From Roseivivax isoporae LMG 25204 (GTDB lineage: Bacteria > Pseudomonadota > Alphaproteobacteria > Rhodobacterales > Rhodobacteraceae), in assembly GCF_000521865.1 (NCBI RefSeq), contig NZ_JAME01000027.1:1-64000 (forward strand): a DNA stretch of 64,000 nucleotides, in the 5' to 3' direction. How positions within the stretch are numbered: position 1 is the stretch's first letter; each line of letters begins with the position of its first letter. This document shows positions 8,038 to 43,850 of the stretch, piece after piece. A program made the position numbers and the translations under genes. The notes under the pieces were generated by a model. The model was not told the DNA's origin. It saw nothing but the letters and a program-made list of their open reading frames with translations, and searched no databases.

Positions 8038-8044
8038 CCGCCGA

Positions 8045-8662: not shown

Positions 8663-9987
8663 CACGTCCCCCGGATCAGCCGGCTGCGCAGCCACCCCGA
8701 CACGGTGTCCATCACCATGACCATGAGCACGATCAGGACGATGTAGTAGGTGACCTCCTCCCAGTCCTTCTGGGTGATGATCGCCTGCGTCAGCAGGAGC
8801 CCGATGCCGCCGCCCGTGATCGCGCCGATGATCGTCGCCGAGCGCGTGTTCGATTCGAGGTAGTAGAGGATCTGCGAGATGAGCACCGGCGTGATCTGCG
8901 GGATGACGCCGAACCGCGAGCGCTGCAGCGCGTTGGCGCCGGTCGAGCGGACGCCCTCGATCTGGCGGCCGTCGACGTTCTCGAGCGATTCCGAGAAGAG
9001 CTTGCCGAAGGTGCCGGTGTCGGTGAGCAGGATCGCCAGCGTGCCGGTGAGCGGCCCCGGCCCGAAGGCGCGGGACAGAAGGATGGTCCAGATCAGCGCG
9101 TCGACCCCGCGGGCGAAGTCGAAGACGCGCCGCACCGCGAAGCGGAGCGCCACGAGCGGCGCGAAGTTGCGGGCGGCGGCAAAGGCCAGCGGCAGCGCCA
9201 CGAGCGCCGCGCCCATCGTGCCGAGGAAGGCCATCAGGATCGTCTCGCCCAGCGCCCAGACCACGTCCGCGTGCCGCCACATCGGGTTGCCCCAGAAATC
9301 CTGCCAGGCGCCGGCGATGTTCGACCGATCGGGGTCGATCCGGTCGCCGAAGAGGATCTCGAGCGGCCCGTGTCCGTGATAGGGTGAGGACAGCGTGAAG
9401 AAGAACAGCTCCCACCCCGCGAAGTAGCGGAAGACCTCGTTGCGGGTGCGGGTCAGCGACACGCGTCCGGCCTCGGTCGTGATGTCCACCCGCGCGTTCG
9501 AGGCGGAGATGAAGTCGGGCACGCTGCCGTCGGGGGTCTCGAGGACGATCCGCCGGCCGTCATGGCCCGCGGTCACGAGCCCGTAGCCCGGGATGTCGTA
9601 GCGCACGTCCGCCCCCTCGAAGACGACCACGTGGCCGTCGTCGAGAACGATCTCGGTCCGGTCGCTGCCGAGGCTCACCCAGTCGGGCGCCTCGCCCGCG
9701 GGATAGGTGCCCTGCCGTTCGCCCTCGATCGCCACCTCGACGTCGCCCGAGCGGTTGTCACGCGTCACGTGGGTCTTGTAGCTCCACGTGTCCGACAGGA
9801 GCGTCACCATGTTGTCGACGCGCAGCCGGTTCGCGAGGCCCGCGATGTCGAAGGCGAAGAAGATGTAGACCAGATAGGCGAGGATCGCCGCGGGGATCGC
9901 GAGGGCCACGAGCCGCTGGCGCGCGATCCGCGCCACAGCGAGCGCGCGCAGGTCGGGTCCGGTGGCGACGTCTGCGGAATGGGTCAT
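8662..9987 (-). CDS. phnE: PhnE2, phosphonate ABC transporter permease with periplasmic insertion
   Basis: A 441-residue permease, about 150 residues longer than its partner PhnE1. The first membrane segment (about residues 28-47) is followed by roughly 160 mostly hydrophilic residues (about 50-210), predicted periplasmic, before the usual permease membrane segments. The coupling motif region SLENVDGRQIEGVRSTGA is present. It overlaps phnE1 by ATGA and the acyltransferase by one base. The two permeases most likely form a heterodimer served by PhnC. Confidence 0.9.
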   Translation of the reverse strand: MTHSADVATGPDLRALAVARIARQRLVALAIPAAILAYLVYIFFAFDIAGLANRLRVDNMVTLLSDTWSYKTHVTRDNRSGDVEVAIEGERQGTYPAGEAPDWVSLGSDRTEIVLDDGHVVVFEGADVRYDIPGYGLVTAGHDGRRIVLETPDGSVPDFISASNARVDITTEAGRVSLTRTRNEVFRYFAGWELFFFTLSSPYHGHGPLEILFGDRIDPDRSNIAGAWQDFWGNPMWRHADVVWALGETILMAFLGTMGAALVALPLAFAAARNFAPLVALRFAVRRVFDFARGVDALIWTILLSRAFGPGPLTGTLAILLTDTGTFGKLFSESLENVDGRQIEGVRSTGANALQRSRFGVIPQITPVLISQILYYLESNTRSATIIGAITGGGIGLLLTQAIITQKDWEEVTYYIVLIVLMVMVMDTVSGWLRSRLIRGT

Positions 9988-10856
9988 GCCTTGCCTCCGT
10001 GCACGAGCCTGTGGCGCGCCATGCTCGACAGCTGGTCGAAGAGCACGATCGTCGCGAAGAGCATGAGGAAGATCGCGGCGCTTTCGGCGAACTGCCCCTG
10101 CCCCCAGGTGATGGCGTTCTTGAGCTCGTAGCCGATGCCGCCCGCGCCCACGAAGCCGAGGATCGCCGAGGCGCGCACGTTGATCTCGAAACGCAGAAGC
10201 GCGTAGCTCAGGAAGTTCGGCGCCACCTGCGGCAGGACGCCCAGATGCATCTGCTGGAGCCACCGCGCGCCGGTCGAGCGCAGGCCCTCCACGGGCTTGA
10301 GGTCCGCGTTCTCCGCCACCTCGGAAAAGAGCTTGCCCAGCGCGCCGGCGGTATGGATGGCGATGGCGAGCATGGCCGGGACGGGCCCGACCCCCATGAG
10401 GAAGATCAGCACCAGCGCGATGACGATGTCGGGGATCGCGCGCATGATGTCCATCAGGCGGCGGAAGACCGGGATCGCCCGGGGCCAGAGCGCGAGCCCC
10501 CGAGTGGACAGAAGCGCCAGCGCGATGGCGACCGACGCGCCGATCAGGGTCGAGACGGCGGCGATGTTGATGGTCTCGACGAGCGCCGGGAAGAAGTCGA
10601 CGAAATGGCCCGGAAGTTCCGACACGTTCTGCCATGCCTCGCCGACCACGTCGGCGGGAAAGTCGAGGATCTGCGGGAAGCCCTGGATGAAGCCGCCGGC
10701 GTTGCGATCGTTCGCGACGCTGAAGCCCGCGACCATGAGCGCGACGAACACGATCAGCAGCGCGAAGGAATAGGCACGCTTGCGCCGCACCATCGCCAGG
10801 TAGGTCTCGTGGATGTTCGCGGATGCCGGCGCACCGCGGTCGGCAATGTCAGCCAT
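9984..10856 (-). CDS. phnE: PhnE1, phosphonate ABC transporter permease
   Basis: A 290-residue inner-membrane permease of the PhnE family, of normal length, with the conserved loop region EVAENADLKPVEGLRSTGA that contacts the ATPase. It is the first permease after phnD and is translationally coupled to the longer second permease by an ATGA overlap. A GC-rich hairpin with a U run stands between phnD and this gene, so its level is probably lower than that of the binding protein. Confidence 0.93.
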   Translation of the reverse strand: MADIADRGAPASANIHETYLAMVRRKRAYSFALLIVFVALMVAGFSVANDRNAGGFIQGFPQILDFPADVVGEAWQNVSELPGHFVDFFPALVETINIAAVSTLIGASVAIALALLSTRGLALWPRAIPVFRRLMDIMRAIPDIVIALVLIFLMGVGPVPAMLAIAIHTAGALGKLFSEVAENADLKPVEGLRSTGARWLQQMHLGVLPQVAPNFLSYALLRFEINVRASAILGFVGAGGIGYELKNAITWGQGQFAESAAIFLMLFATIVLFDQLSSMARHRLVHGGKA

Positions 10857-12808: not shown

Positions 12809-13954
12809 TCAGGTGCGTGACAGCGTCTCGACGCTCAGGATCGTCGGCAGGTGGCGCGCGATCTCGGACCAGTTCTTGCCCGCGTCCAGGCTGGCGAAGA
12901 CCGATCCCGAATTCGTGCCGAAATAGACGCCGGCGGGCTCGGCGCGGTCCGTCGCCATCGCCTGCCGCAGCACGGTGAAGAAGCAGGACCGCTGCGGCAG
13001 GCCCGCGCGCTGGGCGGTCCAGCTGTCGCCGGCATCCTCGGACTTCCAGACCGCCGCGGCGGCGTCGGGCGGGTAGCGGCCGGCGGAGTCGCCGTTCAGC
13101 GGCAGCGTCCAGATCGTCCCGGGGCGCGCGGGATGCACCGCCACCGGAAAGCCGAAGGTCGAGGGCAGCCCGGGTGTCACGTCGTCCCAGCTGCGCCCGC
13201 CATCGCGCGAGCGGAACACGCCGTGGTGGTTCTGCTGGTAGAGCAGGTCGGTTTCGCCCGACGCCCGGACGATGTTGTGCACGCAATGCCCGATCTCGTG
13301 CCCATCGCCGCCGGCGGGATGGTCGGGGGGCGGCACCGCGTTCGAGCGACGGTTGCGACGCTCCCACGTGGCCCCGCCGTCCTCGCTGGCGAAGACGCCC
13401 GCGGCCGAGATGCCGAGCCAGATCCGCCCGGGCGCCTCGGGCGCGGTGACGATGGTGTGCAGGGTCAGGCCCGCCCCGCCCGGCTGCCATTCGGCGGCGG
13501 AGGGATGGTCGGTCAGCGCCTCCACCCGCTGCCAGCTGTCGCCGCGGTCGCGGCTGACGAAAAGCTGCGCGGGCCGCGCCCCGGCCCAGAGCGCGCCGTC
13601 GGCCCGCGCGAGCGACCAGATCGAATCGAGAAGCCCGCTGAACGGCGCCTCGGGCGCGGGCGTCATCCCGAAGGTCCTGGCCATCTCGGGATCCGCCGCG
13701 ATCCAGGCGTCCATCTTGCCGTCCGACAGCTTGGCGAGCGTCCACGACGCGCCGCCGTCGGTGGAGCGCCAGATGCCCGCCCCGGTCCAGTCGTTGCCGC
13801 CGCCCGCCCAGAGCGTGCCGCTGTCCGGATCGCCGATCACATGGTTGACGGACCAGCCGTCGCAGAACGGGCCGCGCACGGACCAGTCCGCCGCCCCGTC
13901 GATGAGGAACGCGCCCTTCGTGGTCCCGACGAGCACCGTCACGTCCCGCGCCAT
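12809..13954 (-). CDS. Asp-box (BNR) beta-propeller protein, sialidase/sortilin-like fold
   Basis: A 381-residue protein with at least six Asp-box motifs (SxDxGxxW type): STDGGASW, SRDRGDSW, SEDGGATW, SRDGGRSW, SEDAGDSW and SLDAGKNW. Such repeats mark a beta-propeller as in sialidases, sortilins and the plant photosystem assembly factor HCF136. No signal peptide is seen from the chosen start MARDVTVLVG, so it is probably cytoplasmic. Substrate and role are unknown. It stands alone, just upstream of the phn transporter block on the same strand. Confidence 0.75.
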   Translation of the reverse strand: MARDVTVLVGTTKGAFLIDGAADWSVRGPFCDGWSVNHVIGDPDSGTLWAGGGNDWTGAGIWRSTDGGASWTLAKLSDGKMDAWIAADPEMARTFGMTPAPEAPFSGLLDSIWSLARADGALWAGARPAQLFVSRDRGDSWQRVEALTDHPSAAEWQPGGAGLTLHTIVTAPEAPGRIWLGISAAGVFASEDGGATWERRNRRSNAVPPPDHPAGGDGHEIGHCVHNIVRASGETDLLYQQNHHGVFRSRDGGRSWDDVTPGLPSTFGFPVAVHPARPGTIWTLPLNGDSAGRYPPDAAAAVWKSEDAGDSWTAQRAGLPQRSCFFTVLRQAMATDRAEPAGVYFGTNSGSVFASLDAGKNWSEIARHLPTILSVETLSRT

Positions 13955-30762: not shown

Positions 30763-30928
30763 GCCTGCGGCCCGCGCCGCCACAATTGTTTCCGGCTACG
30801 TCACATTCCCCCCCTTTTCCCGTGCCAATCCGCGGCACGGGGGCGGCGCGTCGCGCGCGACAGGCGCACGCCCGCCTGCTATGAGGCGGCGCGGCGCCTG
30901 CCGCGGACGTAACGAGTGCACGGGGACG

Positions 30929-32323
30929 ATGCCAAACCCTCTGGCCTACCTGATGCTGGCCGCGTGGCCTGTGGTGACGATCGTGCTGTTCCGGCGGCTT
31001 CCGCCGGCGCGGGCGATGATCGCCGCCATCCTCGGCGGCTACCTCGTGCTGCCGGAGCCGCCGGCGGTGTTCGACCTGCCGCTCTTTCCGCCCTTCACCA
31101 AGCACAACATCCCCGCGCTCTCGGCGCTTCTGACCTGTCTCTGGATGTACGGGCGCACCGGGCCGCTCCTGCCGCAGAATCTGCTCGCGCGGGGGCTGCT
31201 CGCGGTCTTCGTGCTGTCGCCGGTGCTGACCGTCTTCGCCAATCCCGAACCGCTGGTGTTCCAGGCGGCGTTCGTGCCGGGGCTCGGGGTCAAGGACGCG
31301 ATCGCCCTGCCGATCCAGCAGGTGCTGCTGGTGATCCCCTTCCTGCTGGCGCGGCTTCTCCTGAACGGGGCGGAGGCGCAGCGCGACCTGCTCGTGGCGC
31401 TGGTCTGGGGCGGGCTCGCCTATTCGGTGCTGATGCTGATCGAGGTGCGGCTGTCCCCGCAGCTCAACGCGTGGATCTACGGCTATTACCAGCACTCGTT
31501 CGCGCAATCGATCCGCGCCTCGGGATTCCGGCCTGTGGTGTTCCTCTACCACGGGCTGTGGGTCGCGTTCTTCTGCATGACGGCGATGGTCGCGGCCTTC
31601 GCGCTCTGGCGGCGGGACCGGGTCGGCAACCGGGCGGTGTGGCTGCTTGCGGCGCTCTACCTCGCGGCGGTTCTGGTGCTGGCGAAATCGCTGGGCGCGC
31701 TGGTCCTCGCGGTGGCGCTGGTGCCGCTCGTGGTGCTGCTGGGCCCGGTCATGCAGATCAACGTGGCGATCGTGGTGGCGTGCCTGTCGCTCGCCTACCC
31801 GCTGATGAAGGGCGCGCACGTGGTGCCCGAGGCGCGCATCCTGCAGCAGGCGGCGGCGATCGACCCCGAGCGGGCGCATTCGGTCGCCTTCCGATTCGAC
31901 AACGAGAACACGCTTCTCGACCGGGCGGCGGAAAAGCCGCTTTTCGGCTGGGGCAGCTGGGGGCGCAACCACGTGCACGACCAGGTGACCGGCACCATGC
32001 TGACCATCGCCGACGGGCGCTGGATCATCACCATCGGCGTCTTCGGCTGGATCGGGTTCCTCGCGGAGTTCGGCCTGATCGCGCTGCCGGTCTTCCTGCT
32101 CTGGCGCGAGACGGTGAAGCGGCGCGACGGCCGCGTCGCGGTCTCGATCGCGCCGCTGTCGCTGCTTCTCGCGTTCAACCTCTTCGACATGCTGCCGAAC
32201 GCGACGCTGACGCCGCTGACCTGGCTCATCGCGGGGGCGCTCACGGGCTATGCCGAGGTGCTGCGGGCCGAGCGTCTGCGGGCGGCGGACCGCACGCCGT
32301 TCACCTGGAAGCCGATCCTGTGA
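30929..32323 (+). CDS. O-antigen ligase/polymerase-like membrane protein
   Basis: A 464-residue protein with about ten or more membrane segments and a large loop with PLFGWGSWGRNHVHDQ, the pattern of Wzy/WaaL-type O-antigen polymerases and ligases. It probably polymerises or transfers the repeat unit of the polysaccharide made by the following genes. The ATG at 30929 (MPNPLAYLML) follows GGGGAC. Its stop overlaps the start of the next glycosyltransferase (GTGA), so the two are coupled. Confidence 0.8.
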   Translation: MPNPLAYLMLAAWPVVTIVLFRRLPPARAMIAAILGGYLVLPEPPAVFDLPLFPPFTKHNIPALSALLTCLWMYGRTGPLLPQNLLARGLLAVFVLSPVLTVFANPEPLVFQAAFVPGLGVKDAIALPIQQVLLVIPFLLARLLLNGAEAQRDLLVALVWGGLAYSVLMLIEVRLSPQLNAWIYGYYQHSFAQSIRASGFRPVVFLYHGLWVAFFCMTAMVAAFALWRRDRVGNRAVWLLAALYLAAVLVLAKSLGALVLAVALVPLVVLLGPVMQINVAIVVACLSLAYPLMKGAHVVPEARILQQAAAIDPERAHSVAFRFDNENTLLDRAAEKPLFGWGSWGRNHVHDQVTGTMLTIADGRWIITIGVFGWIGFLAEFGLIALPVFLLWRETVKRRDGRVAVSIAPLSLLLAFNLFDMLPNATLTPLTWLIAGALTGYAEVLRAERLRAADRTPFTWKPIL

Positions 32324-33613: not shown

Positions 33614-34411
33614 TCAGGGCGCGTCCTGCCGGGCGGCGTCGTCGCGCCCCGCAGGCGCGCCGCGCCGGCGCAGCACCAGCGCGTGCAGGACGAGACCGGG
33701 CAGCGCCGCGATGCAGGCGCCGTAGCGGGGCCCCATGCGGCGCGGATCCCGGACGAGCCGCCAGACCCATTCGAGCGCCAGCGCCCGCACCGCCGCGGGT
33801 GCGCGGCGCTGCGCCCCGCCGAAGAAATCGAGCCCCGCCCCGATCGAGGCGAAGCCCACCGCCGGCGCCAGCGTCCGGCCGCGGATGGCGAGACGTTCCT
33901 GCCGCGGTGCGCCGAGGGCGAGGAAGCAGAGCCGCGCGCCGCTCGCCGCCACGCGGTCGAGGAGCGCCGCCGCCGCCGGCCCGTCCGGGTCGAAGCCCAT
34001 GGGCGGCGCCTCGCGCAGGGCGATGCGCAGGCCCGGCACCCGGGCGGCGAGGTGGTCGGCGGCGGCCTCGAGCGTCGCCGCGGTGCTGCCGACCAGCGCC
34101 ACCGGCACGCCCTCGCGCGCCGCGAGCGTGCAGAGCGGCAGGATGGAATCCGAGCCGGCCACCAGCCGCACGGGGCGGCCCGCGAGCCGCGACAGCCACA
34201 CGACCGGGTTGCCGTCGGCGGTGACGATGTCGTGCGCGGCGTAGGCCTTCCGGAAGGCCGGGTCGGCCCGCACCTTCACCAGGTGGTCGAGGTTCAGCGT
34301 GGCGAGCGCGAAGCCGCGTCCGGCGCGCCAGCGCTCGGTCACGGCGCGGGCGAGCGCCGGCCAGTCGGGTGCCGTCACGCGGATCGTGTCGCCCTCGGTC
34401 TGAAACTGCAT
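33614..34411 (-). CDS. WecG/TagA/CpsF-family glycosyltransferase (GT26)
   Basis: A 265-residue GT26 glycosyltransferase. Conserved parts are LATLNLDHLVKVRADPAFR, DIVTADGNPVVWLSR and FLALGAPRQERLA. Family members add N-acetylmannosamine-type or related sugars to a lipid-linked primer, usually as the second sugar. It is the only minus-strand gene inside the assembly cluster apart from the Wzz-type gene. The start at MQFQTEGDTIRVTAP is used; upstream residues in the frame look non-coding. Confidence 0.87.
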   Translation of the reverse strand: MQFQTEGDTIRVTAPDWPALARAVTERWRAGRGFALATLNLDHLVKVRADPAFRKAYAAHDIVTADGNPVVWLSRLAGRPVRLVAGSDSILPLCTLAAREGVPVALVGSTAATLEAAADHLAARVPGLRIALREAPPMGFDPDGPAAAALLDRVAASGARLCFLALGAPRQERLAIRGRTLAPAVGFASIGAGLDFFGGAQRRAPAAVRALALEWVWRLVRDPRRMGPRYGACIAALPGLVLHALVLRRRGAPAGRDDAARQDAP

Positions 34412-34689
34412 CGCGCGCCTGACACCTCGGTCGTCCCGTCCGGGCCGGGCTAGCACATCGCCGGCGCGCACGTCAGGTCCAAGCTGCGCGCGTCCGTGTT
34501 CCGGCTACAATAGCGCCGCGTCGCGGGGATCGTGGCGGGTTGCGGCGCCCCGCCGAAATGAGGCCATCATTGCGTGCGAGCGGGGCTCGCGCGGTCGGGA
34601 GTACCGCGAATCGGGGACAGGACGGGCATGGAACGAGCGAACCGGGCGGGCACCCGGCGGCCGCGCATCCGCGGCGGGCACGGGGCGGC

Positions 34690-35823
34690 ATGAACGGCGG
34701 CACGGTCTCGATCGTCGGCTGCGGCTTCGTCGCGGACCTCTACATGCGCTCGCTCGCCACCTTTCCGGGCATCGTCGTCCGCGGAGTCTGGGACCGCGAC
34801 CCCGCGAGGCTGGCGCAGTTCGCGGCGCACTGGAAGGTGCCGGCGGCAACGGGGCTCGCGGCACTGCTCGACTCGCACCCGGCGGACGGGCTGGTCCTGA
34901 ACCTGACGAACCCGGCCGCGCATCTCGAGGTGAACCGCGCCTGTCTCGAGGCCGGCGCGCATGTGTACTGCGAGAAGCCGCTCGCGCTCGACGCGGCGGA
35001 GGCCGAGGCGCTGGCGGCCGAGGCTTCGGCGCGGGGGCTGCAGCTCGGCTCCGCGCCCTGCTCGGTGCTGGGCGAGGCGGCGCAGACCCTGGGCCACGCC
35101 ATCCGCAGCGGCATTGGCGGGCGACCGGCGGCCATCTATGCCGAACTCGACGACGGCTACGTGGCGCAGGCGCCCTACCGCCGCTGGCGGACGGAAAGCG
35201 GGGCGCCCTGGCCCTGGGAGGACGAGTTCCGCACCGGCTGCACGCTGGAACATGCGGGCTACTACCTGAGCTGGCTCATCGCGTGGTTCGGCGGCGTGCG
35301 CAGCGTGGTCGCGGCCTCGGCCGAAGTCGTGCCGGACAAGGGCGGTCTCGACCGCCCGACCGCGCCGGATTTCTCGGTCGCGGCGCTATTCTTCCACGAC
35401 GGGCCGCCCGCGCGGCTGACCTGTTCCATCGTGGCGCCGCACGACCACCGGATCCGCGTGATCGGCGAGGCCGGCGTGCTGGAATGCGATGCCGCCTGGG
35501 ACAACGGCGCGCGGATCGGGCTGCGCCGGCGCAGGACCGTGCGGCGGCGGCTCGTGGAGGGTCCGTTCACCCGGCGCGTGCGGCTCGGGCGGCCGACCCA
35601 TCCCAAGGTCGGGCGCTGGGGCGCAGCGTCGATGAACTTTGCCCTCGGGCCGGCCGAGATGCTGGAGGCGATCCGCGAGGGCCGCGAGAGCCGGCTGGGT
35701 GGCGCCTACGCGGTGCACCTGACCGAGGTGACCCTGGCGATCCAGAACGCCGGAGAGGATGCGGGCGCGCAGCGGATGCGCACCACCTGCGCGCCGATGG
35801 AGCCGATGCCGTGGGCCCGCTAG
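34690..35823 (+). CDS. Gfo/Idh/MocA-family oxidoreductase
   Basis: A 377-residue NAD(P)-dependent sugar oxidoreductase. The Rossmann motif VSIVGCGFVADLYMRSLA is at the N-terminus and the family EKP motif (VYCEKPLALDAAEA) follows. The C-terminal domain contains FRTGCTLEHAGYYLSWLIAWFGG, around the expected active site. It overlaps the following epimerase gene by 13 bases. The same pair of families is fused in the 39020-41113 gene. Substrate presumably a nucleotide sugar of the polysaccharide. Confidence 0.85.
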   Translation: MNGGTVSIVGCGFVADLYMRSLATFPGIVVRGVWDRDPARLAQFAAHWKVPAATGLAALLDSHPADGLVLNLTNPAAHLEVNRACLEAGAHVYCEKPLALDAAEAEALAAEASARGLQLGSAPCSVLGEAAQTLGHAIRSGIGGRPAAIYAELDDGYVAQAPYRRWRTESGAPWPWEDEFRTGCTLEHAGYYLSWLIAWFGGVRSVVAASAEVVPDKGGLDRPTAPDFSVAALFFHDGPPARLTCSIVAPHDHRIRVIGEAGVLECDAAWDNGARIGLRRRRTVRRRLVEGPFTRRVRLGRPTHPKVGRWGAASMNFALGPAEMLEAIREGRESRLGGAYAVHLTEVTLAIQNAGEDAGAQRMRTTCAPMEPMPWAR

Positions 35824-36794
35824 GCCGCATCGTGGTCACCGGCGCCGCGGGCTTCGTCGGGCGCGCGGTGGTGGCCGAGGCGCGGCGGCGCGGGCATCCG
35901 GTCGTGGCCGTGGTGCGCGGCGCGCCGGTCGCGGACTGGTCGCGGGACGCGGGCATCGAGCCCTGCCGCTGCGATCTCGCCGATCCGGGCGCAGCGGCGG
36001 TGCTGGCGCGCGCCTGCCGGGGCGCCGACGCGGTGATCCATGCCGCGGCGCATCTCGATGCCGGCGTCGACGCCGCGCGCGAGACGGCCGCCGGGACCGC
36101 GCACCTCCTCGCGGCGATGGCGGAGGCGGGCACGCGGCGGCTGGTCCTCGTGAGCTCGATCGCCGTCTACGACACCGCGGCGCTGGCACCCGGCAGCGCC
36201 ATCACCGAGGCGACGCCGGTCGAGCGCGAAGGCGCCGCGCGGGACGGCTACGTGGCGCAGAAGCTCGCCCAGGAGCGGATGGCGCGCGCGGCCGCCGAGG
36301 CCGGCGGGCCGGGCGTCTGGATCCTGCGGGTCGGCGCGATCTACGGCGCGGGGCGGCTCTGGAACGCGCATCTGGGCGTCAGGGTCGGGCCGGTGCTGAT
36401 CCGCGTCGGCACCGGCGGCGAGGTGCCGGTGGCGCATCTCGCGCTGGTGGCGCGCGCGCTGGTCGACGCCAGCGCCCGCGATCCGGCCGGCGAGCGGGTG
36501 CTGAACGTGACCGACGACGTGCGACCCGATCGCGACGCCTACCTGCACGCGTTGCGGCGGTCTGGCTGGCCGTCGGTCGTGGTGCCCCTGCCCTGGACAT
36601 TGTGGCTCGCCGCGGCACGGCTGCTGCGCCCGCTCGAGCCACGGCTGCCGGGGCTTCTGCGCGCGCGCATCCTGCGGGCGCGCATGCTGCCCTTCCGCTA
36701 TCCCAACACCGCGCTGCGCCGCACCTTCGGCGGCGCGCAGGCCCGCGCCTTCGAGGACCGGTTCGCGCAGGCGATCGCGGAGGGCGGCGGATGA
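35811..36794 (+). CDS. NAD-dependent epimerase/dehydratase (extended SDR)
   Basis: A 327-residue extended SDR. The cofactor motif VVTGAAGFVGRAVVAEA and a YxxxK-type catalytic pair (GYVAQKLAQE) are present. The start is GTG at 35811, with GGAG 8 bases upstream, inside the end of the previous oxidoreductase gene. It overlaps the next glycosyltransferase by ATGA. The C-terminus carries a hydrophobic stretch (PWTLWLAAARLLRPLEPRLP) that may contact the membrane. Likely modifies a sugar nucleotide. Confidence 0.82.
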   Translation: MGPLGRIVVTGAAGFVGRAVVAEARRRGHPVVAVVRGAPVADWSRDAGIEPCRCDLADPGAAAVLARACRGADAVIHAAAHLDAGVDAARETAAGTAHLLAAMAEAGTRRLVLVSSIAVYDTAALAPGSAITEATPVEREGAARDGYVAQKLAQERMARAAAEAGGPGVWILRVGAIYGAGRLWNAHLGVRVGPVLIRVGTGGEVPVAHLALVARALVDASARDPAGERVLNVTDDVRPDRDAYLHALRRSGWPSVVVPLPWTLWLAAARLLRPLEPRLPGLLRARILRARMLPFRYPNTALRRTFGGAQARAFEDRFAQAIAEGGG

Positions 36795-38032
36795 GGCTCG
36801 GCTACCTGACCGGGGAATATCCGCGGGCCTCGGACACCTTCATCCAGCGCGAGGTCGCGGGCCTGCGCGCGCTCGGCCACGTGGTCGAGACCTGCACGGT
36901 CCGGCGCACCGGGCCCGAGCACCTGGTCGGGCCCGAGCAGCGGTCCGAGCAGGCGGGCACGTTCCACGTGCTCGAGGCCGCCCGGCGGCCCGCGCGGCTG
37001 GCCAGGGCGCATCTGCGGTGGATGCGCCGGCCGGGGCGCTACCTGCGGGCCCTGGCGCTCGCGTGGCGGACGGCGCCGGAGGGCTGGCGCGGCGCGCTCT
37101 GGCAGGCGTTCTACTTCGCCGAGGCGGGCGTGCTGGCCGATCACCTCGCGCGGCGGGGCGTGAGCCACCTGCACAACCACATCGCCGAGGCGTCGTGCAC
37201 GGTGGCGATGCTGGCCTCGGCGCTGTCGGGCATCCCCTACAGCTTCACCATCCACGGGCCCGGCATCTTCTTTGCGCCCGAGCGCTGGCGCATCGACGAG
37301 AAGGCGGCGCGCGCGGCCTTCGTGGCCTGCATCTCGGACTACGCGCGGGCGCAGCTCATGTGCTTTGCCGCGCCCGAGCACTGGGGCCGGCTGCATGTGG
37401 TCCATTGCGGGGTGACGCCGGACATCTATGCCGGCGGCCCGCGCGGCCGGGGCGCGGACCTGCTGTTCGTCGGGCGGCTTGCCCGGGTCAAGGGCGTGGC
37501 GCTGCTGCTCCGGGCCGTCGCGGCGCTGGCCGAACGGGTCCCGGACCTGCACCTGACGCTGATCGGCGACGGGCCCGATCGCGCGGGCCTCGAGGCAGAG
37601 GCGCGGGCGCTCGGGATCGCGGAGCGCTGCACCTTCCTCGGCTACCGTGGGCAGGCGGAGGTCGCCGAGGCGCTGGGCCATGCCGACCTATTCGTGCTGC
37701 CGAGCTTTGCCGAGGGCGTGCCGGTCGTGCTGATGGAGGCGATGGCGGCGGGGCTGCCGGTCGTGACCACGCGCATCGCGGGCGTGCCGGAACTGGTCGA
37801 GGACGGCGTGTCGGGGCTGCTGGTGGCGCCGGGGGACGCGGGCAGGCTGGCCGATGCGCTGGCGCGGCTCCTGGCCGATCCCGGGGAACGCGCCCGGATG
37901 GGCGCGGCCGGGCGCGCGCGCGTCGCGGCGGAACATGACGCAGCCATCGAGGCCGCGCGGCTCGCGGCGCTGTTCGAGGGCTATGCCGCAGGCCGGCGCG
38001 ACCTGCAGAAGCGGCCGGAGCCCGTGTCGTGA
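36791..38032 (+). CDS. Glycosyltransferase, GT4 family
   Basis: A 413-residue GT-B glycosyltransferase with LGYLTGEYPRASDTFIQREV at the N-terminus, a pattern of exopolysaccharide GT4 enzymes. The C-terminal half has LLFVGRLARVKGVALLLRA, LIGDGPDRAGLEAEA and the EX7E donor region FAEGVPVVLMEAMAAGLPVV. Coupled at both ends (ATGA with the epimerase, GTGA with the next GT2). Confidence 0.88.
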   Translation: MRLGYLTGEYPRASDTFIQREVAGLRALGHVVETCTVRRTGPEHLVGPEQRSEQAGTFHVLEAARRPARLARAHLRWMRRPGRYLRALALAWRTAPEGWRGALWQAFYFAEAGVLADHLARRGVSHLHNHIAEASCTVAMLASALSGIPYSFTIHGPGIFFAPERWRIDEKAARAAFVACISDYARAQLMCFAAPEHWGRLHVVHCGVTPDIYAGGPRGRGADLLFVGRLARVKGVALLLRAVAALAERVPDLHLTLIGDGPDRAGLEAEARALGIAERCTFLGYRGQAEVAEALGHADLFVLPSFAEGVPVVLMEAMAAGLPVVTTRIAGVPELVEDGVSGLLVAPGDAGRLADALARLLADPGERARMGAAGRARVAAEHDAAIEAARLAALFEGYAAGRRDLQKRPEPVS

Positions 38033-39009
38033 GCGGACCCGCGGACGTGGCGCTGGTGCTCATCGGGCGGAACGAGGGCGCGCGGCTCGTCGCGGCGCTC
38101 GAGGCGGCGCGGGGCCAGGCGGCCCGGCTCGTCTACGTCGATTCGGGGTCGACCGACGGCAGTATGGCGGCGGCCACGGCCGCGGGCGCGGAGGTCGTGA
38201 CGCTCGACGTCTCGGTGCCGTTCACGGCCGCGCGCGCGCGGAACGCCGGGTTCGCCCGGCTCGAGGAGACGGGCGGCGCGCCCGCCTGCGTGCAGTTCAT
38301 CGACGGCGACTGCGCCATCGTGCCGGGCTGGACCGGGATCGCGCGCGCCCGCCTCGCCGCCGATCCGGGGCTTGGCCTGGTGACCGGCTGGCGCGCCGAG
38401 GTCGCGCCCGAGGCGTCGGTCTACAACCGCCTCTGCCAGTGGGAATGGCGCCGCCCGGCAGGGCCCATCGCGGCCTGCGGCGGCGACATGATGGTGCGGG
38501 CCGAGGCATTCCGGTTGATTGGCGGCTTCGACCCGGCGGTGATCGCCGCCGAGGACGACGAGTTCTGCCAGCGACTCGCCAAGGCCGGCTGGCGGCTCGA
38601 GCGGCTCGCGGCGGAGATGACGCGCCACGATGCCGCCATGACGCGCCTCGGCCAGTGGTGGCGGCGGGCGGAACGGACCGGCCACGGCTTCGCGCAGGTC
38701 GGCCGGCTGCATCCCGGCTACTTCGCGACCGAGCGGCGGCGGGTGAAGGTCTACGCGCTGGCCCTGCCGGTGGCCATCCTCGGGTCGGTGGCGGTGTCGC
38801 CCTGGCTCGCGCTGCTGCCCGCGATGGCCTACCCGGCGAGCTGGGCCAGCGCCGCGCGGGGGCTGCGCCGCGACGGCGTTCCGCGCGGCGACGCCCGCGC
38901 CATGGCAGTGCTGCTGACCCTGTCCAAGTTTCCGAACCTCATCGGCATGGTGCGCTATCACCTGCGCCGGCTGCGCCGCGCGCCCATGCGCCTCATCGAG
39001 TACAAGTAG
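38029..39009 (+). CDS. Glycosyltransferase, GT2 family (GT-A fold)
   Basis: A 326-residue GT2 enzyme with VALVLIGRNEGARLVAALEA, YVDSGSTDGS and the metal-binding FIDGDCAIVPGW. A C-terminal region with hydrophobic segments (VKVYALALPVAILGSVAVSP) may anchor it in the membrane. It starts at GTG overlapping the previous stop. It ends 10 bases before the fused oxidoreductase-epimerase. Confidence 0.86.
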   Translation: MSGPADVALVLIGRNEGARLVAALEAARGQAARLVYVDSGSTDGSMAAATAAGAEVVTLDVSVPFTAARARNAGFARLEETGGAPACVQFIDGDCAIVPGWTGIARARLAADPGLGLVTGWRAEVAPEASVYNRLCQWEWRRPAGPIAACGGDMMVRAEAFRLIGGFDPAVIAAEDDEFCQRLAKAGWRLERLAAEMTRHDAAMTRLGQWWRRAERTGHGFAQVGRLHPGYFATERRRVKVYALALPVAILGSVAVSPWLALLPAMAYPASWASAARGLRRDGVPRGDARAMAVLLTLSKFPNLIGMVRYHLRRLRRAPMRLIEYK

Positions 39010-39019
39010 GAGGGCCCTC

Positions 39020-41113
39020 ATGCCCGCAGAGACCCGCATCGGTCTGATCGGCGCCGGCTACATCGCGCGCTGGCACGCGGAGGCCATCGCCGCCACCCGG
39101 GGCGCGCGCGTCGCGGCCGTCTGCGACACCCATCGCGGCGCCGCCGAGGCGCTGGCGCGGGCGTACGGCGTTCCGGCCCACGAGGACGTGGAGGCGCTGA
39201 TCGCCTCGGGCAGCTGCGACGCGGTGCACGTGCTGACGCCGCCCGGATCGCATGCGGCCCTCGCCATCCGCTGCCTCGAGGCGGGGCTCGACGTGCTGGT
39301 GGAAAAGCCGGTGGCGACCAGCGCGGAGGAGACGCGCGCCATCGCGGAAGCCGCGCGCGCCGCGGGGCGGCGGTTTGCGCCGGGCCACAATTTCCTCGGC
39401 CTGCCGTCCTGGGAGCGGCTGACGCGACATGTGGCGGCGGGCGCGCTCGGCCGCGTCTCGGGAATGGAGATCGTCTGGGCCCTGCCGCTCGCGCCGCTGC
39501 GCTCGGGGCCCTACGGGCTCTGGCTCATGCGCGAGGCGCGGAACCTGCTGCTCGAGATCGGGCCGCATCCCATGGCCTTTGCCGTCGATCTTTTCGGCGC
39601 GCCCGAGATCCACGCCACGCTGCTGTCGAAGCCCGTGGCGCTGCCCGGTGGCGACACCCGGCCGCAGGGCGTCCGCATCCTCGCCACGGCCGGCGGGGTC
39701 GACATCACGCTGACGATCAGCCTCGTCGAGACGGTGGACGACAGGTCGGTGACGCTGCGCGGCTCGTCGGGGCGGGCGCGGCTCGATTTCGCCGCCGACA
39801 CGCTGGTGGTCGAGCGCGAGAACGCGTCGGACCTGATCGTGAACCCGCTGCGCCGGCAGCTCGACATGGCGGGGCAGCACGCGCGGGAGGGACTGCGCAA
39901 CGCGGCGGTGCAGGTGCGGTCGCTCAACACCCGCAATCCCTACGGGCAGAGTTTCCGAGGCATGTGCGCGGAGCTCTACGGGCAGCGCGCGGCCGATCCG
40001 CGCTGGACCGCCGAGGCGGCGGTGACGGTGATGCAGGCGCTCGACGACGCGCTGGCGCTGGTCCCGGCGGAGCGTCTCGCACAGGCCGCGCCCGTCGCGC
40101 CGCGCCGCGCGCCGAACCCCAAGGCACTGGTGATCGGCGGCACGGGCTTCATCGGGCGCGCGCTGGTGCGCCGGCTGGTCGCGGGCGGCACCGACGTGCG
40201 GGTCCTGTCGCGCGGGCGGCATGGTCCCTTTCCCGACCTGCCCGACAGCGTCGAGACGGTGGGCGCGTCGCTGACCGACCGCGCGGCACTGGTCGCGGCG
40301 ATGGACGGGATCGACGAGGTCTACAACCTTGCCCGCGCGCTCGGGTCGAGCTGGGAGGAGTGCCTCGCCGAGGACGTGGCGCCCGCGGTCGCGGTCGCCG
40401 AGGCGGTGCTCGAGGCGGGCGTCGGGCGCCTTGTCTACACCGGGACGATCGCCAGCTACGACATGTCCGACCCCCGCACGCGCATCACCGAGGAGACGGG
40501 CTTTGCACCCGACATGTCCGACCGCAACCTCTACGCCCGGTCCAAGGCGGAATGCGAACGGCGGCTGATGGAGATGCACCGCAGCCGCGGCCTGCCCGTG
40601 ACCATCGCGCGGCCGGGCATCGTGATCGGCCCGGGCGGGCCGCTGCAGCACTGGGGCATCGGGCGCTGGCACGGCGCGGGAGCTGTGCGCATCTGGGGAC
40701 CGGGCACGAACGTCCTGCCCTTCGTGCTGAACGACGACGTGGCCGACGGGCTGATCCTCTGTGCCCGGGTGCCCGAGGCACTGGGCGAGGATTTCAACCT
40801 CGTGGGCGACCCGATGCTGACGGGGCGCGGCTATTTCGACGCGATCCGCCAGACGACCGGCGCGCGCATCCGCGTGTCGTCGGGCAACCTCACCGCGTTC
40901 TGGGCGGCGGACGCGCTGAAATACGTGCTGAAGCGCCACGCGCTCGGCCGGCGCGACGCGGTGCGGCCGTCGCGTGCCGACTGGCGGAGCCGGGCACATT
41001 TCGCACGATTCGTGAACGACAAGCCGAAGGCGGTGCTGGGCTGGACACCGGAGGCCGACCGCGACCGGCTGGTGGCGCGCGGCATCGCCGAGGCGAACCT
41101 CTTCGGGTTCTGA
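39020..41113 (+). CDS. Fused Gfo/Idh/MocA oxidoreductase and NAD-dependent epimerase
   Basis: A 697-residue two-enzyme fusion with no stop or frameshift. Residues 1 to about 350 are a Gfo/Idh/MocA oxidoreductase (IGLIGAGYIARWHAEAIA; VLVEKPVATSAEE; LLLEIGPHPMAFAVDLFG). A Pro/Ala/Arg linker (APVAPRRAPNPK) leads to an extended SDR from about residue 368 (ALVIGGTGFIGRALVRRL; YTGTIASYDMSD; catalytic YARSK near 503). Both halves keep their cofactor motifs. It probably carries out two successive steps on one sugar. A split pair of the same families lies at 34690-36794. Confidence 0.9.
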   Translation: MPAETRIGLIGAGYIARWHAEAIAATRGARVAAVCDTHRGAAEALARAYGVPAHEDVEALIASGSCDAVHVLTPPGSHAALAIRCLEAGLDVLVEKPVATSAEETRAIAEAARAAGRRFAPGHNFLGLPSWERLTRHVAAGALGRVSGMEIVWALPLAPLRSGPYGLWLMREARNLLLEIGPHPMAFAVDLFGAPEIHATLLSKPVALPGGDTRPQGVRILATAGGVDITLTISLVETVDDRSVTLRGSSGRARLDFAADTLVVERENASDLIVNPLRRQLDMAGQHAREGLRNAAVQVRSLNTRNPYGQSFRGMCAELYGQRAADPRWTAEAAVTVMQALDDALALVPAERLAQAAPVAPRRAPNPKALVIGGTGFIGRALVRRLVAGGTDVRVLSRGRHGPFPDLPDSVETVGASLTDRAALVAAMDGIDEVYNLARALGSSWEECLAEDVAPAVAVAEAVLEAGVGRLVYTGTIASYDMSDPRTRITEETGFAPDMSDRNLYARSKAECERRLMEMHRSRGLPVTIARPGIVIGPGGPLQHWGIGRWHGAGAVRIWGPGTNVLPFVLNDDVADGLILCARVPEALGEDFNLVGDPMLTGRGYFDAIRQTTGARIRVSSGNLTAFWAADALKYVLKRHALGRRDAVRPSRADWRSRAHFARFVNDKPKAVLGWTPEADRDRLVARGIAEANLFGF

Positions 41114-41284
41114 TGCGGCCCGCGCGTCGACAATCCCCGCCTTTCGACCGTATTCTTGACAGATTTTCGGGTATTCTCGTCGATCGAGCAGTCCAGGTTC
41201 CGCAAAAGGCCGTGCCGTGCCAGTGATCCAGTGGTCCCCCTTCCGTGCGCCCGTCGCGGCGCCCTGCCCCGCGGGATCCGCGTG

Positions 41285-42427
41285 ATGGCTGCCGGGCCGC
41301 GCTTTCGCCGCCGCAAGGGCCGTGCCGCGCCTGCGGAGGACGACCTGCGCCCGGTGCCGCCGCTCGCCAGCCGCGAGGAACGCCTGGCCCGCCGCGCCGA
41401 GGACATGTCGGCCACGGAGAGCCGCAGCGCCGCGGCCGAGGAGGCCCGCGCACGCGACGGGCAGGCCGCCGAGGCCGAACGCGCGCGGCACGCGGCCGAG
41501 GCCGAGGCAGAAACGGAACGGCTGCGCATCGAGCGGGACGCGGAGCGCGCCCGGATCGCGCGGGAGCTCGCCGAGGCGCGGGAGGCGGAGCGGGCGCGCG
41601 CCGCCGAGGCCGAACGGCCGCTGCTCCTGCGGGCGGCGGAGCCCGCGCGTGAACCGGCCCCGGCCCCCGAGGCGCCGCCGAGCGTCCCGGGCGACGGGTC
41701 CGCGGCGGCCTGGGAGCGGCTCGCGCGGTTTTCGGTCGACGAACGCGAGCTCGACCGGCACCGGGTCGTCACGGCCAGCCGTCACGACCCGGCGCACGTG
41801 GCCTTCGACGTCCTGCGCACGCGGCTTCTGCAGGCGCTGGCGGAACGGGGCTGGAGCCGCGTCGCCGTGACCTCGCCCACGCAGGGCTGCGGCAAGACCT
41901 TCACCGCCGCCAATCTCGGCATCTCGCTTGCCCGGCAGGAAAACGCCCGGACGGTGGTGCTGGACCTCGACCTGCGCCGGCCCACGCTGCACAAGGTGTT
42001 CGGCCTGCGCGAGGTCGGGAGCATGGGCGACGTTCTGCGCGGGCGGACACCGCCCGAGGCGCATCTGCGCCGGCTCGGGCCCAACACCTTTCACGCCGGC
42101 GGCTGCATCGCCTTCGGCTTCAACGACGCGCCCGAGACCTATGCCGCGGAGCTGCTGCAGGATCGGCGCAGCCGCGCGGCGCTCGACCTGCTCGAGGCTC
42201 GGTTCGCTCCCGACGTGGTGCTGATCGACCTGCCCCCGGCGCTGGCCTCGGACGACGTGCTGGCGCTGCGCCCGGCCTTCGACGCGGTTCTGCTGGTGGT
42301 GGGCGGCGGGCTGACCACGCAAGCGGAGATCCGCGAGGTGCAGAAGCGGTTGGGCGAGGACACGCCCCTGCTGGGCGTGGTCCTGAACCGCGCCGAGGGC
42401 GTGAACACCAGGAAATACGCCTACTGA
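41285..42427 (+). CDS. BY-kinase-like exopolysaccharide ATPase with coiled-coil N-terminus
   Basis: A 380-residue protein. Residues 30-115 are an Ala/Glu/Arg-rich predicted coiled coil. The rest is a CpsD/Wzc-type ATPase with Walker A TSPTQGCGKTF (GCGKT at 201-205), Walker A' VVLDLDLRRP and Walker B VVLIDLPPA. Such ATPases act with Wzz-type proteins in polysaccharide chain control. The C-terminus RKYAY has only two tyrosines instead of a cluster, so autophosphorylation is uncertain. The start at 41285 is chosen for its position after the promoter region; GTG at 41282 is also possible. Confidence 0.82.
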   Translation: MAAGPRFRRRKGRAAPAEDDLRPVPPLASREERLARRAEDMSATESRSAAAEEARARDGQAAEAERARHAAEAEAETERLRIERDAERARIARELAEAREAERARAAEAERPLLLRAAEPAREPAPAPEAPPSVPGDGSAAAWERLARFSVDERELDRHRVVTASRHDPAHVAFDVLRTRLLQALAERGWSRVAVTSPTQGCGKTFTAANLGISLARQENARTVVLDLDLRRPTLHKVFGLREVGSMGDVLRGRTPPEAHLRRLGPNTFHAGGCIAFGFNDAPETYAAELLQDRRSRAALDLLEARFAPDVVLIDLPPALASDDVLALRPAFDAVLLVVGGGLTTQAEIREVQKRLGEDTPLLGVVLNRAEGVNTRKYAY

Positions 42428-42442: not shown

Positions 42443-43765
42443 TCAGGATTCGACGCGCCGAGGCAGCAGGCGGTCGAAGATGCCCGCATCGAGCAACGCC
42501 CCGCCGAAGGTGCGGAAAGCCGCCCATCCGAGGAGCGCGAGACCCGCGAGGCCGCCCAGCCAGATCAGCTTGCGCCGGCCGTTCCCGCGGCGGCTGCGCA
42601 CCGGCGGGATGGCGGCGACGGGGGTGATGCCGAGCTGCCGTTCGAGCTGCGCGGCGGTGCGGATCGCGGGGTTCATCACCTCGGCCAGGAAGGCCACGCC
42701 CACGGCGAGAAGCACGCTCGCCACCCCGCCGGCAAGTGCCACCTTCTTCTTCGAGCGCGAGATCGACGTCTCGGGCACGAGCGCGGTCTCGAGCACCTCG
42801 AACCGGTCGGCCTGTTCGCGGTCCTGCAGGATCTGGCCCATCTCGGCATCGGCCTTGCGGCGGGTGATGACGGCGTAGCGTTCCTGCAGCTGGGTCAGGT
42901 CGCGCTCGAGCGCGCCCAGGTCACGTTCCACGTCGGGCGCGCGGGCGAGGTCGGCCTCGATGGCCGCGATGCGCGCGCGGATCAGTGCCTGCTGGTCCTC
43001 GTAGAGCGCGACCTGCCGGGCAAGGTCGCCCTCGCGGATGCGCGCGGAATTGTTGCGCAGCGCGATGATCTCCTGCTCGAGCGACAGCGCGCTCTGGCGG
43101 TAGGTGTTGAGCTGGTCGCGCAGCGCCGCGAGGCCGCCGGGCAGGGCATCGGCGTTCGCGCGCTTGAACTCGGCGATGGCGGCCTCGGCCGCGGCGATGT
43201 CCTCGGACACGCGGGCGACCTCGGCATCGAAGAAGTCGAAGGTGGCCTGCGCGCGGGTCAGGCTGCGCTCGCGGGCCTGCTCGATGACCGAGGTCATGAG
43301 CTCGTTGGCGACGGCGGCGGCCTTCCCGGCGTCGTCGAGGCGCACCGAGATGCGCAGGCCCGAGGGCGCGATGCCGGTCTGCCACGGCTCGGCGTTGCCG
43401 CGGATTTCCTCGAGCGTGACCGCCTCGCGCAGCGCGGAGATGCGTTCGACCACCGATTCCTCCTCGGGGAAGAGCGCGTAGGCGTCCATGATGCCGAGGA
43501 GGTTGTCGCGTGCCATGAGGCGCTGCTCGATCAGCCGGACACGGCGGCCGGCATCGGGTTCGGGGGCCGCGGGCGTGGTCGCGGCGAAGGGATCGGGAAC
43601 GCGGGCATCCTCGATCTGAACGACGGCGGTCGCCTCGTAGAGCGGATCCTGCCGCAGCGCGACCTGCACCGACAGCAGGCAGCCCAGGAGCGTCAGCCCC
43701 AGGATCAGCCAGAAACGGCGGCGGACGGCGGCGAGCACCTCGTCGAAACTCTGGAACTGGTTCAT
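42443..43765 (-). CDS. Wzz/GumC-type polysaccharide chain-length determinant
   Basis: A 440-residue polysaccharide co-polymerase. It has an N-terminal membrane segment (about 17-37), a large periplasmic region with coiled coil (about 150-310), a second membrane segment (KKVALAGGVASVLLAVGVAF) and an extra third one near the C-terminus (IWLGGLAGLALLGWAAF). It lacks a kinase domain, which is supplied by the converging gene at 41285-42427, 15 bases away. The start MNQFQSFDEVLAAVRRRFW is used. It has its own promoter in the 192-base gap. Confidence 0.87.
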   Translation of the reverse strand: MNQFQSFDEVLAAVRRRFWLILGLTLLGCLLSVQVALRQDPLYEATAVVQIEDARVPDPFAATTPAAPEPDAGRRVRLIEQRLMARDNLLGIMDAYALFPEEESVVERISALREAVTLEEIRGNAEPWQTGIAPSGLRISVRLDDAGKAAAVANELMTSVIEQARERSLTRAQATFDFFDAEVARVSEDIAAAEAAIAEFKRANADALPGGLAALRDQLNTYRQSALSLEQEIIALRNNSARIREGDLARQVALYEDQQALIRARIAAIEADLARAPDVERDLGALERDLTQLQERYAVITRRKADAEMGQILQDREQADRFEVLETALVPETSISRSKKKVALAGGVASVLLAVGVAFLAEVMNPAIRTAAQLERQLGITPVAAIPPVRSRRGNGRRKLIWLGGLAGLALLGWAAFRTFGGALLDAGIFDRLLPRRVES

Positions 43766-43850
43766 GTCACTGATCCCGCAAAGGTGCCCCCGATGCGTGC
43801 AGACGGGGCAGAGCACGTGCCACGCCCCGGTCTTGCCTCAATCCAATACG

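Follow-up and report, generated by a model that had tools for sequence, protein, structure and literature searches.

Split and fused forms of a Gfo/Idh/MocA–SDR enzyme pair in one polysaccharide operon of Roseivivax isoporae

Introduction

Why should one polysaccharide operon carry the same two enzyme families twice, in the same order, once as overlapping genes and once as a single fused gene? In the window analysed here, a 64,000-nucleotide stretch of Roseivivax isoporae LMG 25204 (contig NZ_JAME01000027.1, positions 1 to 64,000), a Gfo/Idh/MocA oxidoreductase gene (OXR) overlaps an extended SDR gene (EPI), and a further gene (FUS) encodes both families in one polypeptide. A preliminary description of this DNA proposed that two activities are coupled here, and that the locus might have caught a gene-fusion event or a duplication. 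Because these two families turn up joined in more than one form, they are well suited to asking what keeps a pair of enzymes together; we approached this with family models, predicted structures, trees and the comparison of loci in other genomes.

Gene organization of the split and fused pairs

OXR (34690..35823, + strand; PF01408, 68.3 bits; model pLDDT 88.8) is followed by EPI (35811..36794, + strand; PF01370, 98.0 bits), which begins at a GTG within OXR, giving a 13-base overlap in the window sequence. FUS (39020..41113, + strand) encodes 697 residues, comprising a Gfo/Idh/MocA part (residues 1–352, 39020..40075; PF01408, 105.1 bits, extending over residues 6–123), a Pro/Ala/Arg-rich linker (residues 353–367, 40076..40120; AQAAPVAPRRAPNPK) and an extended SDR part (residues 368–697, 40121..41113; PF01370, 112.4 bits, extending over residues 369–593). 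These scores all exceed the Pfam gathering scores of 24 for PF01408 and 20.9 for PF01370. The coordinates, gene order, overlap, protein length, linker and presence of both families in both versions, as first described, were thus all borne out.

The predicted fold of FUS was confident (pLDDT 91). Its Gfo part was placed by VIA-align (Z 34.9, model residues 2–350) and its SDR part by Foldseek (3wj7 and 6wj9); VIA-align barely samples the SDR half, because Gfo chains take up its match list. The best structural matches of OXR include glucose–fructose oxidoreductase and 1,5-anhydrofructose reductase (Z 33.2–34.5, rmsd 2.4–3.0), tied with others. For both FUS and OXR, the leading Gfo matches differ by no more than about 1 Z unit, and the structural comparison singled out no substrate.

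Between the two pairs lie genes for a GT4 glycosyltransferase (36791..38032, + strand; PF00534, 156.5 bits) and a GT2 glycosyltransferase (38029..39009, + strand; PF00535 and PF13632 over cut-off), the latter a constant neighbour upstream of FUS, as described below. FUS is followed by genes for a tyrosine-kinase-like polysaccharide regulator (41156..42427, + strand; PF01656 over cut-off, with TIGR03018 at 87 bits, below its cut-off of 230.65) and a Wzz-type chain-length determinant (42443..43816, − strand; PF02706, 31.4 bits against a cut-off of 25.5). On the other side, a gene for a WecG/TagA/CpsF-family glycosyltransferase (U; 33614..34471, − strand; PF03808, 146.8 bits) is divergent from the operon.

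Motifs and the proposed reaction

Each half of FUS retains its cofactor and catalytic motifs, confirming what had been claimed for its cofactor motifs, and so do OXR and EPI. The EKP lysine is present in all 57 FUS and all 36 OXR rows, the Tyr and Lys of YxxxK in 56/56 FUS and 27/27 EPI rows, and the glycine motif in both SDRs. The Gfo beta-2 strand ends in Asp (57/57 FUS; 35/36 OXR, one being gapped) and the SDR beta-2 strand in Arg (56/56 FUS; 27/27 EPI); cofactor preference is read here from one residue per domain, and Arg also occupies this place in SDRs outside the two groups, in 8 of 25 from the same genome and in 7 of a further 12.

The name ‘epimerase’ used at first stands as a Pfam family name but not beyond it, since both SDRs lack the acidic residue of the genome’s own classical epimerases and carry Arg beside that place. 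We dropped classical epimerase naming, as OXR, EPI and FUS all score below every NCBIfam model cut-off: UDP-glucose 4-epimerase GalE (TIGR01179; FUS 28.7, EPI 33.2, cut-off 262.3), the hopanoid-associated epimerase HpnA (TIGR03466; FUS 78.2, EPI 58.5, cut-off 367.65), inositol 2-dehydrogenase IolG (TIGR04380; FUS 85.6, OXR 49.3, cut-off 355) and archaeal UDP-GlcNAc 3-dehydrogenase (NF040723; FUS 72.6, OXR 30.1, cut-off 450).

At roughly even odds (a probability of about 0.5), we read FUS as an enzyme that carries out two redox steps on a sugar, in which an NAD-linked dehydrogenase is followed by an NADPH-linked SDR reductase and the product feeds GT2, with OXR–EPI as a second pair working along the same lines. 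The Asp of the Gfo domain fits NAD(H), and this domain would convert one hydroxyl to a ketone on a sugar that is probably nucleotide-linked or lipid-linked. After a putative hand-over between domains, the SDR domain, with an Arg suited to NADP(H), would reduce the ketone from its opposite face or act next to it. Such a two-step redox epimerisation would yield a sugar with new stereochemistry, which the adjacent GT2 may transfer. OXR–EPI, combining a Gfo of another subfamily with a paralogous SDR, would probably serve a different residue of this surface polysaccharide, its product perhaps being used by GT4.

As GnnA, WlbA or KijD10 appear among the Foldseek and VIA-align matches of the Gfo domain, and UDP-GlcNAc C4-epimerase among the Foldseek matches of the SDR, the Gfo domain might instead be a 3-dehydrogenase on a nucleotide sugar (GnnA/WlbA-like), with the SDR as 4-epimerase or dehydratase on the same sugar and the keto product passing to an aminotransferase encoded elsewhere. 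We consider this unlikely, given the low scores against the UDP-GlcNAc 3-dehydrogenase and GalE models, the SDR without the acidic residue of classical epimerases, and the lack of any aminotransferase family among the scanned open frames of the cassette and its flanks (a part of all frames).

In deoxysugar pathways, KijD10-type 3-ketoreductases and a 4-ketoreductase reduce a diketo nucleotide sugar in succession. The high place of KijD10 in the Foldseek list for the FUS model, together with an SDR Arg that fits NADPH reduction, would agree with both domains being successive reductases of this kind, but the Asp of Gfo beta-2 fits NAD(H) and the scanned flanks hold no deoxysugar dehydratase beside the cassette, which makes that arrangement improbable.

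Pairing within the genome and across genomes

Both families are frequent in this genome (14 Gfo and 39 SDR matches), and the Gfo halves of the split and fused versions are not sisters, as would suit a coincidence of common families with no joint pathway. We judge such a coincidence distinctly improbable. In this genome 13 Gfo genes pass the Pfam cut-off, and of these only OXR and FUS have an adjoining same-strand SDR, as computed with the 30 strongest of the 39 SDR matches, the other nine lying near no Gfo gene by eye; one remaining Gfo gene has a same-strand SDR 1.8 kb off and one has opposite-strand SDRs. Conserved gene order also argues against coincidence, as does the fact that a single SDR clade is coupled to Gfo again and again, with fusions in both orders, and the Gfo–SDR pairing in the window is more than chance.

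The FUS fusion is old and widespread, so this locus does not catch a fusion event as had been suggested. A search for the fused protein elsewhere located it in Rhodobacteraceae, other Proteobacteria, one Myxococcales MAG and one planctomycete plasmid, and full-length matches in a single open frame with no stops were found in 9 and 10 genomes in two comparisons (own genome excluded). Five of seven plasmid records name the gene, and those five names cover the SDR half only, so FUS is easy to overlook.

GT2 lies 9–89 bp upstream of FUS in all 44 counted loci (FUS at least 39% identical, with loci counted as distinct by FUS sequence, not species). This count drops L124 and L128 as copies of L040 and L059, and omits L068, L072, L129 and L131, which fall below the single-segment score limit though other comparisons show the fusion. 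A match to U of at least 150 bits was present in 34 of the 44. GT2 is also directly upstream of FUS in Aquisphaera and in Paracoccus aminovorans, in the latter with no further polysaccharide-cluster genes adjoining, and a GT2 of this type was found in none of eight distant FUS loci with flank.

Across the compared loci, OXR–EPI is a variable add-on to GT2–FUS. Where flanks were sufficient, intact EPI was missing in 5 of 40 loci and both OXR and EPI in 9 of 40; in Ruegeria conchae, OXR is about 13 kb from EPI and on the opposite strand. FUS is itself absent in one genome (G026, L244) and, with the losses among the 40 loci, this means that neither pair is indispensable.

Of the 28 distinct loci that have OXR and EPI on one strand, 24 contain the candidate EPI start for a 13-base overlap, two others have one for a 10-base overlap, and the last two have no start near the stop. 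This is no proof of selection for coupling: the start sits in the codons of the OXR C-terminal Trp-Ala, which is invariant across the alignment (A5) even in four EPI-less loci (L038, L041, L043 and L054), and 15 of the 28 loci also offer a start with an overlap of 4 bases.

Origins of the two pairs

The SDR halves of EPI and FUS are paralogues within one subfamily (support 96/96; 47 representative rows). In that tree a far fused protein of 25% identity (L068) falls outside the SDR clade. In a second tree, also of 47 representative rows, the SDR clade (support 96/91) contains 25 placed rows, every one fused to or beside a Gfo, although FUS and EPI served as the queries that led to it, so that most rows were picked as coupled and only some search hits form a fairer sample. 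Outside it fall 14 lone SDRs from the same search (‘lone’ meaning no Gfo within about 1.5 kb of flank) and five own-genome SDRs. In that search 30 loci among the matches listed were classified, including 13 same-order fusions, of which four were placed in the second tree; a further SDR tree excluded two frame pieces of L027 and the truncated row of L060.

Coupling within the clade takes the form of same-order fusion, reverse-order fusion (L279, 8257–10434), an overlapping pair (G214, L156, lying downstream of a GT2 with 47% identity) and OXR–EPI with its other Gfo subfamily. The branching order among EPI with G214, the far FUS proteins (G271, G342 and G455) and the main FUS clade had support of 79/19, and FUS monophyly for the SDR half was compatible with the tree test (p-AU 0.363).

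The Gfo halves, by contrast, fall into separate clades, and a single joint clade was rejected (p-AU 0.031; 48 representative rows); the two versions also differ at one active-site position, His versus Tyr. Support for the FUS-type Gfo clade fell from 100/98 to 84/83 once G507 was added (37 representative rows); the Gfo half of its reverse fusion forms a long end branch, of 3.6, and could not be assigned a position.

A recent duplication with fusion or fission inside the lineage could explain why the two versions share order, families and operon and have paralogous SDR halves. It is nevertheless very improbable indeed, because the fusion spans many families and several phyla and because, with Gfo halves from different subfamilies, the tree and AU test refute it for that half and rule out that both genes were duplicated together. 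The initial caution was that placement in unrelated subfamilies would reduce the pairing to coincidence; such placement is seen for the Gfo half and not for the SDR half, which is one subfamily. The coupling of this SDR subfamily to Gfo looks real and recurrent, with another Gfo partner in the split pair, in line with the coupled activities first proposed. Between the two pairs, then, one half is anciently related and the other is not, which suggests that coupling is useful in itself and was made more than once.

Discussion

We saw no account of this Gfo–SDR fusion in the titles and abstract openings of the open-licence papers that our searches listed. More tentatively than for the reaction of FUS itself, GT2–FUS may be an undescribed two-gene unit that ranges from Alphaproteobacteria to a planctomycete plasmid. 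A single polypeptide would there oxidise a sugar with NAD+ and re-reduce it with NADPH, yielding a rare stereoisomer for the glycosyltransferase of the unit. Gfo enzymes would then be obligate partners of the SDR subfamily, their coupling having been built repeatedly as Gfo–SDR and SDR–Gfo fusions, as overlapping genes and with a changed Gfo partner. If the redox-epimerase reading is true, unusual sugars could be reached with FUS as the only protein, and the residues of Roseobacter surface polysaccharides would become easier to approach.

Among known enzymes, the N-terminal domain of FUS resembles the Gfo dehydrogenases levoglucosan dehydrogenase (6a3g), KijD10 (3rc2), GnnA (7bvj) and WlbA (3q2k) in predicted fold, EKP lysine and active-site His, but shares only about 17–23% identity with them, and those chains are of single-domain length (about 300–380 residues). 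The SDR part is like Gox2253 (3wj7) and UDP-GlcNAc C4-epimerase (6wjb) in predicted fold and YxxxK, at 23–24% identity; it differs in that an Arg takes the place of an acidic stretch of the epimerase, and curated epimerase models score below cut-off. The predicted OXR model likewise resembles glucose–fructose oxidoreductase and 1,5-anhydrofructose reductase in structure, at 17–21% identity, whereas OXR lies in a polysaccharide operon beside an SDR.

The two enzymes DprE1–DprE2 epimerise decaprenyl-phosphoryl ribose through a keto sugar followed by SDR-type reduction (PMC10307805). FUS was rejected as a member of that type, its first domain being Gfo/Idh/MocA by Pfam and predicted fold and not an FAD oxidase: DprE1 uses FAD for the first step, in place of the nicotinamide-type Gfo of FUS. 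As a working idea, the scheme proposed for FUS would still resemble DprE1–DprE2 in its order of events, oxidation and then SDR-type reduction.

Split and fused Gfo–SDR pairs in one gene run

Five genes are arranged consecutively on the plus strand, as in one operon: OXR, a Gfo/Idh/MocA oxidoreductase (34690-35823; 377 residues, Pfam PF01408); EPI, an extended SDR (35811-36794; GTG start, 327 residues, PF01370); the glycosyltransferases GT4 (36791-38032) and GT2 (38029-39009); and FUS (39020-41113; 697 residues), with PF01408 then PF01370 and a linker at residues 353-367. OXR/EPI overlap by 13 bases, and EPI/GT4 and GT4/GT2 by 4 each, with a 10-base gap from GT2 to FUS. The preliminary description, of OXR then EPI with a 13-base overlap and of FUS carrying both families in the same order, was borne out by coordinates and Pfam matches. 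Genes for a WecG-family glycosyltransferase (33614-34471, on the strand opposite to the OXR–FUS run), a tyrosine-kinase-like protein (41156-42427) and a Wzz-type chain-length protein (42443-43816) flank the run, which is therefore a surface-polysaccharide locus. The genome has 13 Gfo genes above the Pfam cut-off, and only the window's two have an adjoining same-strand SDR. A 480-residue open frame of coding-like base composition lies at 30881-32323 (plus strand); Pfam and NCBIfam scans gave no match for it, and related frames were found close to the cassette (the WecG-to-Wzz gene run) in several loci.

Gene order and spread of the fusion

We counted 53 distinct FUS loci, 44 of them close (FUS at least 39% identical to the window's) and nine more distant. 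GT2 was directly upstream of FUS in 44/44 close loci (gap 9-89 bp) and in 0/8 distant loci with enough flank. Upstream sequence of 5.5 kb or more was available for 40 close loci: OXR and EPI were found in 26, OXR without an intact EPI in five, and neither in nine. One of these five (G017, locus L027) had EPI matches spread over three frames (12940-13789, minus strand), reflecting either a decayed gene or sequencing errors. Genome G026 (L244) had WecG, OXR, EPI, GT4, GT2, kinase and Wzz genes; FUS was absent from its place between GT2 and the kinase gene.

The annotated OXR/EPI overlap in Shinella was 13 bases, as in the window. On a Ruegeria conchae plasmid (L284, 7741-22940), EPI, GT4, GT2 and FUS were consecutive, EPI first, and the OXR orthologue lay about 13 kb from EPI on the opposite strand of the same cluster; the OXR/EPI overlap is therefore not obligatory. 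On a Paracoccus aminovorans plasmid (L285, 9029-12085), GT2 and FUS stood by themselves as a pair, bordered by transport and urea-amidolyase-type genes, neighbours of other functions, with no adjoining polysaccharide cluster. Aquisphaera had GT2 (48%) then FUS (39%). From this survey, GT2–FUS is the constant unit and OXR–EPI a frequent add-on.

Of the 44 close loci, 34 had a WecG-family match beside the cassette or not far from it. WecG genes in the same score range as the cassette's were also present in relatives without FUS. In a published test, the wecG gene of Phaeobacter inhibens could stand in for hfsJ when Caulobacter made its holdfast (PMC11340318).

Full-length FUS matches at 60-74% identity were found in seven genomes besides its own among 61 searched as relatives, and matches at 33-35% in two genomes from other families; at E 1e-60 the FUS profile matched 11 of 398 genomes in a phylum sample, its own included. 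The proposed search for the fused protein elsewhere found it in several genera (named contigs include Ruegeria, Roseovarius, Paracoccus, Mameliella, Shimia and Cognatishimia), on MAGs labelled Ramlibacter, Magnetococcales, Myxococcales and Acetobacteraceae, and on seven plasmid records (98-100% of query covered), including Shinella, Ruegeria conchae and the planctomycete Aquisphaera. Five of the seven were annotated only as ‘NAD-dependent epimerase/dehydratase’, one record was unannotated and one had no feature there. Judging from this spread, the Gfo–SDR fusion in FUS is old.

Trees of the two halves and recurrent coupling

The two pairs had been described as split and fused versions of the same pair; domain trees upheld this for the SDR halves, which share a clade, but not for the Gfo halves, which fall in separate clades. 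EPI, the SDR of genome G214 and 14 of the 15 placed FUS domains formed one SDR clade (96/96), the exception being the far protein L068. A 48-row Gfo tree grouped the G214 Gfo with 14 FUS domains (100/98) and placed OXR in another clade, alongside six Gfo proteins that stand alone (100/96); forcing FUS, G214 and OXR together was 31.6 log units worse (p-AU 0.031). Support for the FUS Gfo clade fell to 84/83 in a 37-row tree that also took in the Gfo of G507, whose branch is very long. The active-site position is His in 57/57 FUS Gfo domains and Tyr in 36/36 OXR, a difference that accords with separate clades; the EKP lysine is retained in all 57 and 36. FUS residue 179 and the aligned OXR residue are Glu (53/57 and 36/36; other Gfo rows 1/66, own-genome 1/11), a possibly convergent feature.

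With EPI as query at E 1e-20, 398 phylum genomes yielded three matches beyond the cassette: the G214 SDR and, in G342 and in G455, the SDR part of a fused protein. In G214 (L156), the SDR (7962-8957) and a FUS-type Gfo (8954-10036) share a 4-base overlap. GT4 and a GT2 with 47% identity to the window's lie upstream of the two, and the same stretch holds genes for polysaccharide export and a Wzy-like protein as well as a WecG-like match (35%). In a class search of 385 genomes, 47 had a match to an EPI profile; the 28 loci returned besides its own genome and G126 comprised 13 same-order fusions, one reverse-order fusion and 14 lone SDRs (no Gfo within about 1.5 kb of flank). The reverse-order fusion, in G507 (L279, 8257-10434, minus strand), is one open frame that encodes the SDR first and the Gfo second; matches resembling glycosyltransferases lie close by.

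One clade (96/91) of 25 rows, most of them picked for being coupled, united the SDRs of fusions in either order, of overlapping genes and of the cassette; each of the 14 lone SDRs fell outside it, as did the five SDRs placed from the window's own genome. The fair part of this test is therefore the hits from the 398-genome EPI search and the class profile search. A far fused Gfo–SDR protein in a Desulfonauticus MAG (L068, 1058-2905) has its SDR half outside the 96/96 clade and may represent another fusion, made separately. The most economical interpretation is of an SDR subfamily that acts together with a Gfo partner and has been linked to it in more than one way, EPI now being placed beside a Gfo of another subfamily. 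The coupling of these two known enzyme families is real, old and recurrent.

Predicted folds, cofactors and chemistry

Structure prediction of the fusion, suggested in the preliminary description, gave a confident FUS model (pLDDT 91.1, pTM 0.85). Its N-domain matched Gfo sugar dehydrogenases, levoglucosan dehydrogenase being one of a tied set (Z 34.9, with an rmsd of 2.5 across 329 residues), and its C-domain matched Gox2253 and UDP-GlcNAc C4-epimerase; OXR was also modelled with a Gfo fold (pLDDT 88.8). The end of beta-2 carries Asp in the Gfo domains (FUS 57/57, OXR 35/36) and Arg in the SDRs (FUS 56/56, EPI 27/27). This Arg is not special to the FUS and EPI SDRs, being found in 8 of 25 own-genome SDRs; own-genome GalE-like SDRs have Asp one position before the Arg place. 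Asp here usually denotes NAD and Arg NADP, a rule by which the Gfo domain would use NAD and the SDR NADP.

By analogy, the Gfo–SDR pair may carry out a two-step redox epimerisation of a putative sugar substrate: the Gfo domain would perform an NAD-linked oxidation and the SDR domain an NADPH-linked reduction, the sum being epimerisation. DprE1–DprE2 performs a two-step epimerisation using FAD and NAD(P)H (PMC10307805); oxidation followed by reduction is common to that system and to the scheme proposed for FUS, whereas the cofactors differ, being FAD and NAD(P)H in the former and, by prediction, NAD and NADPH in the latter.
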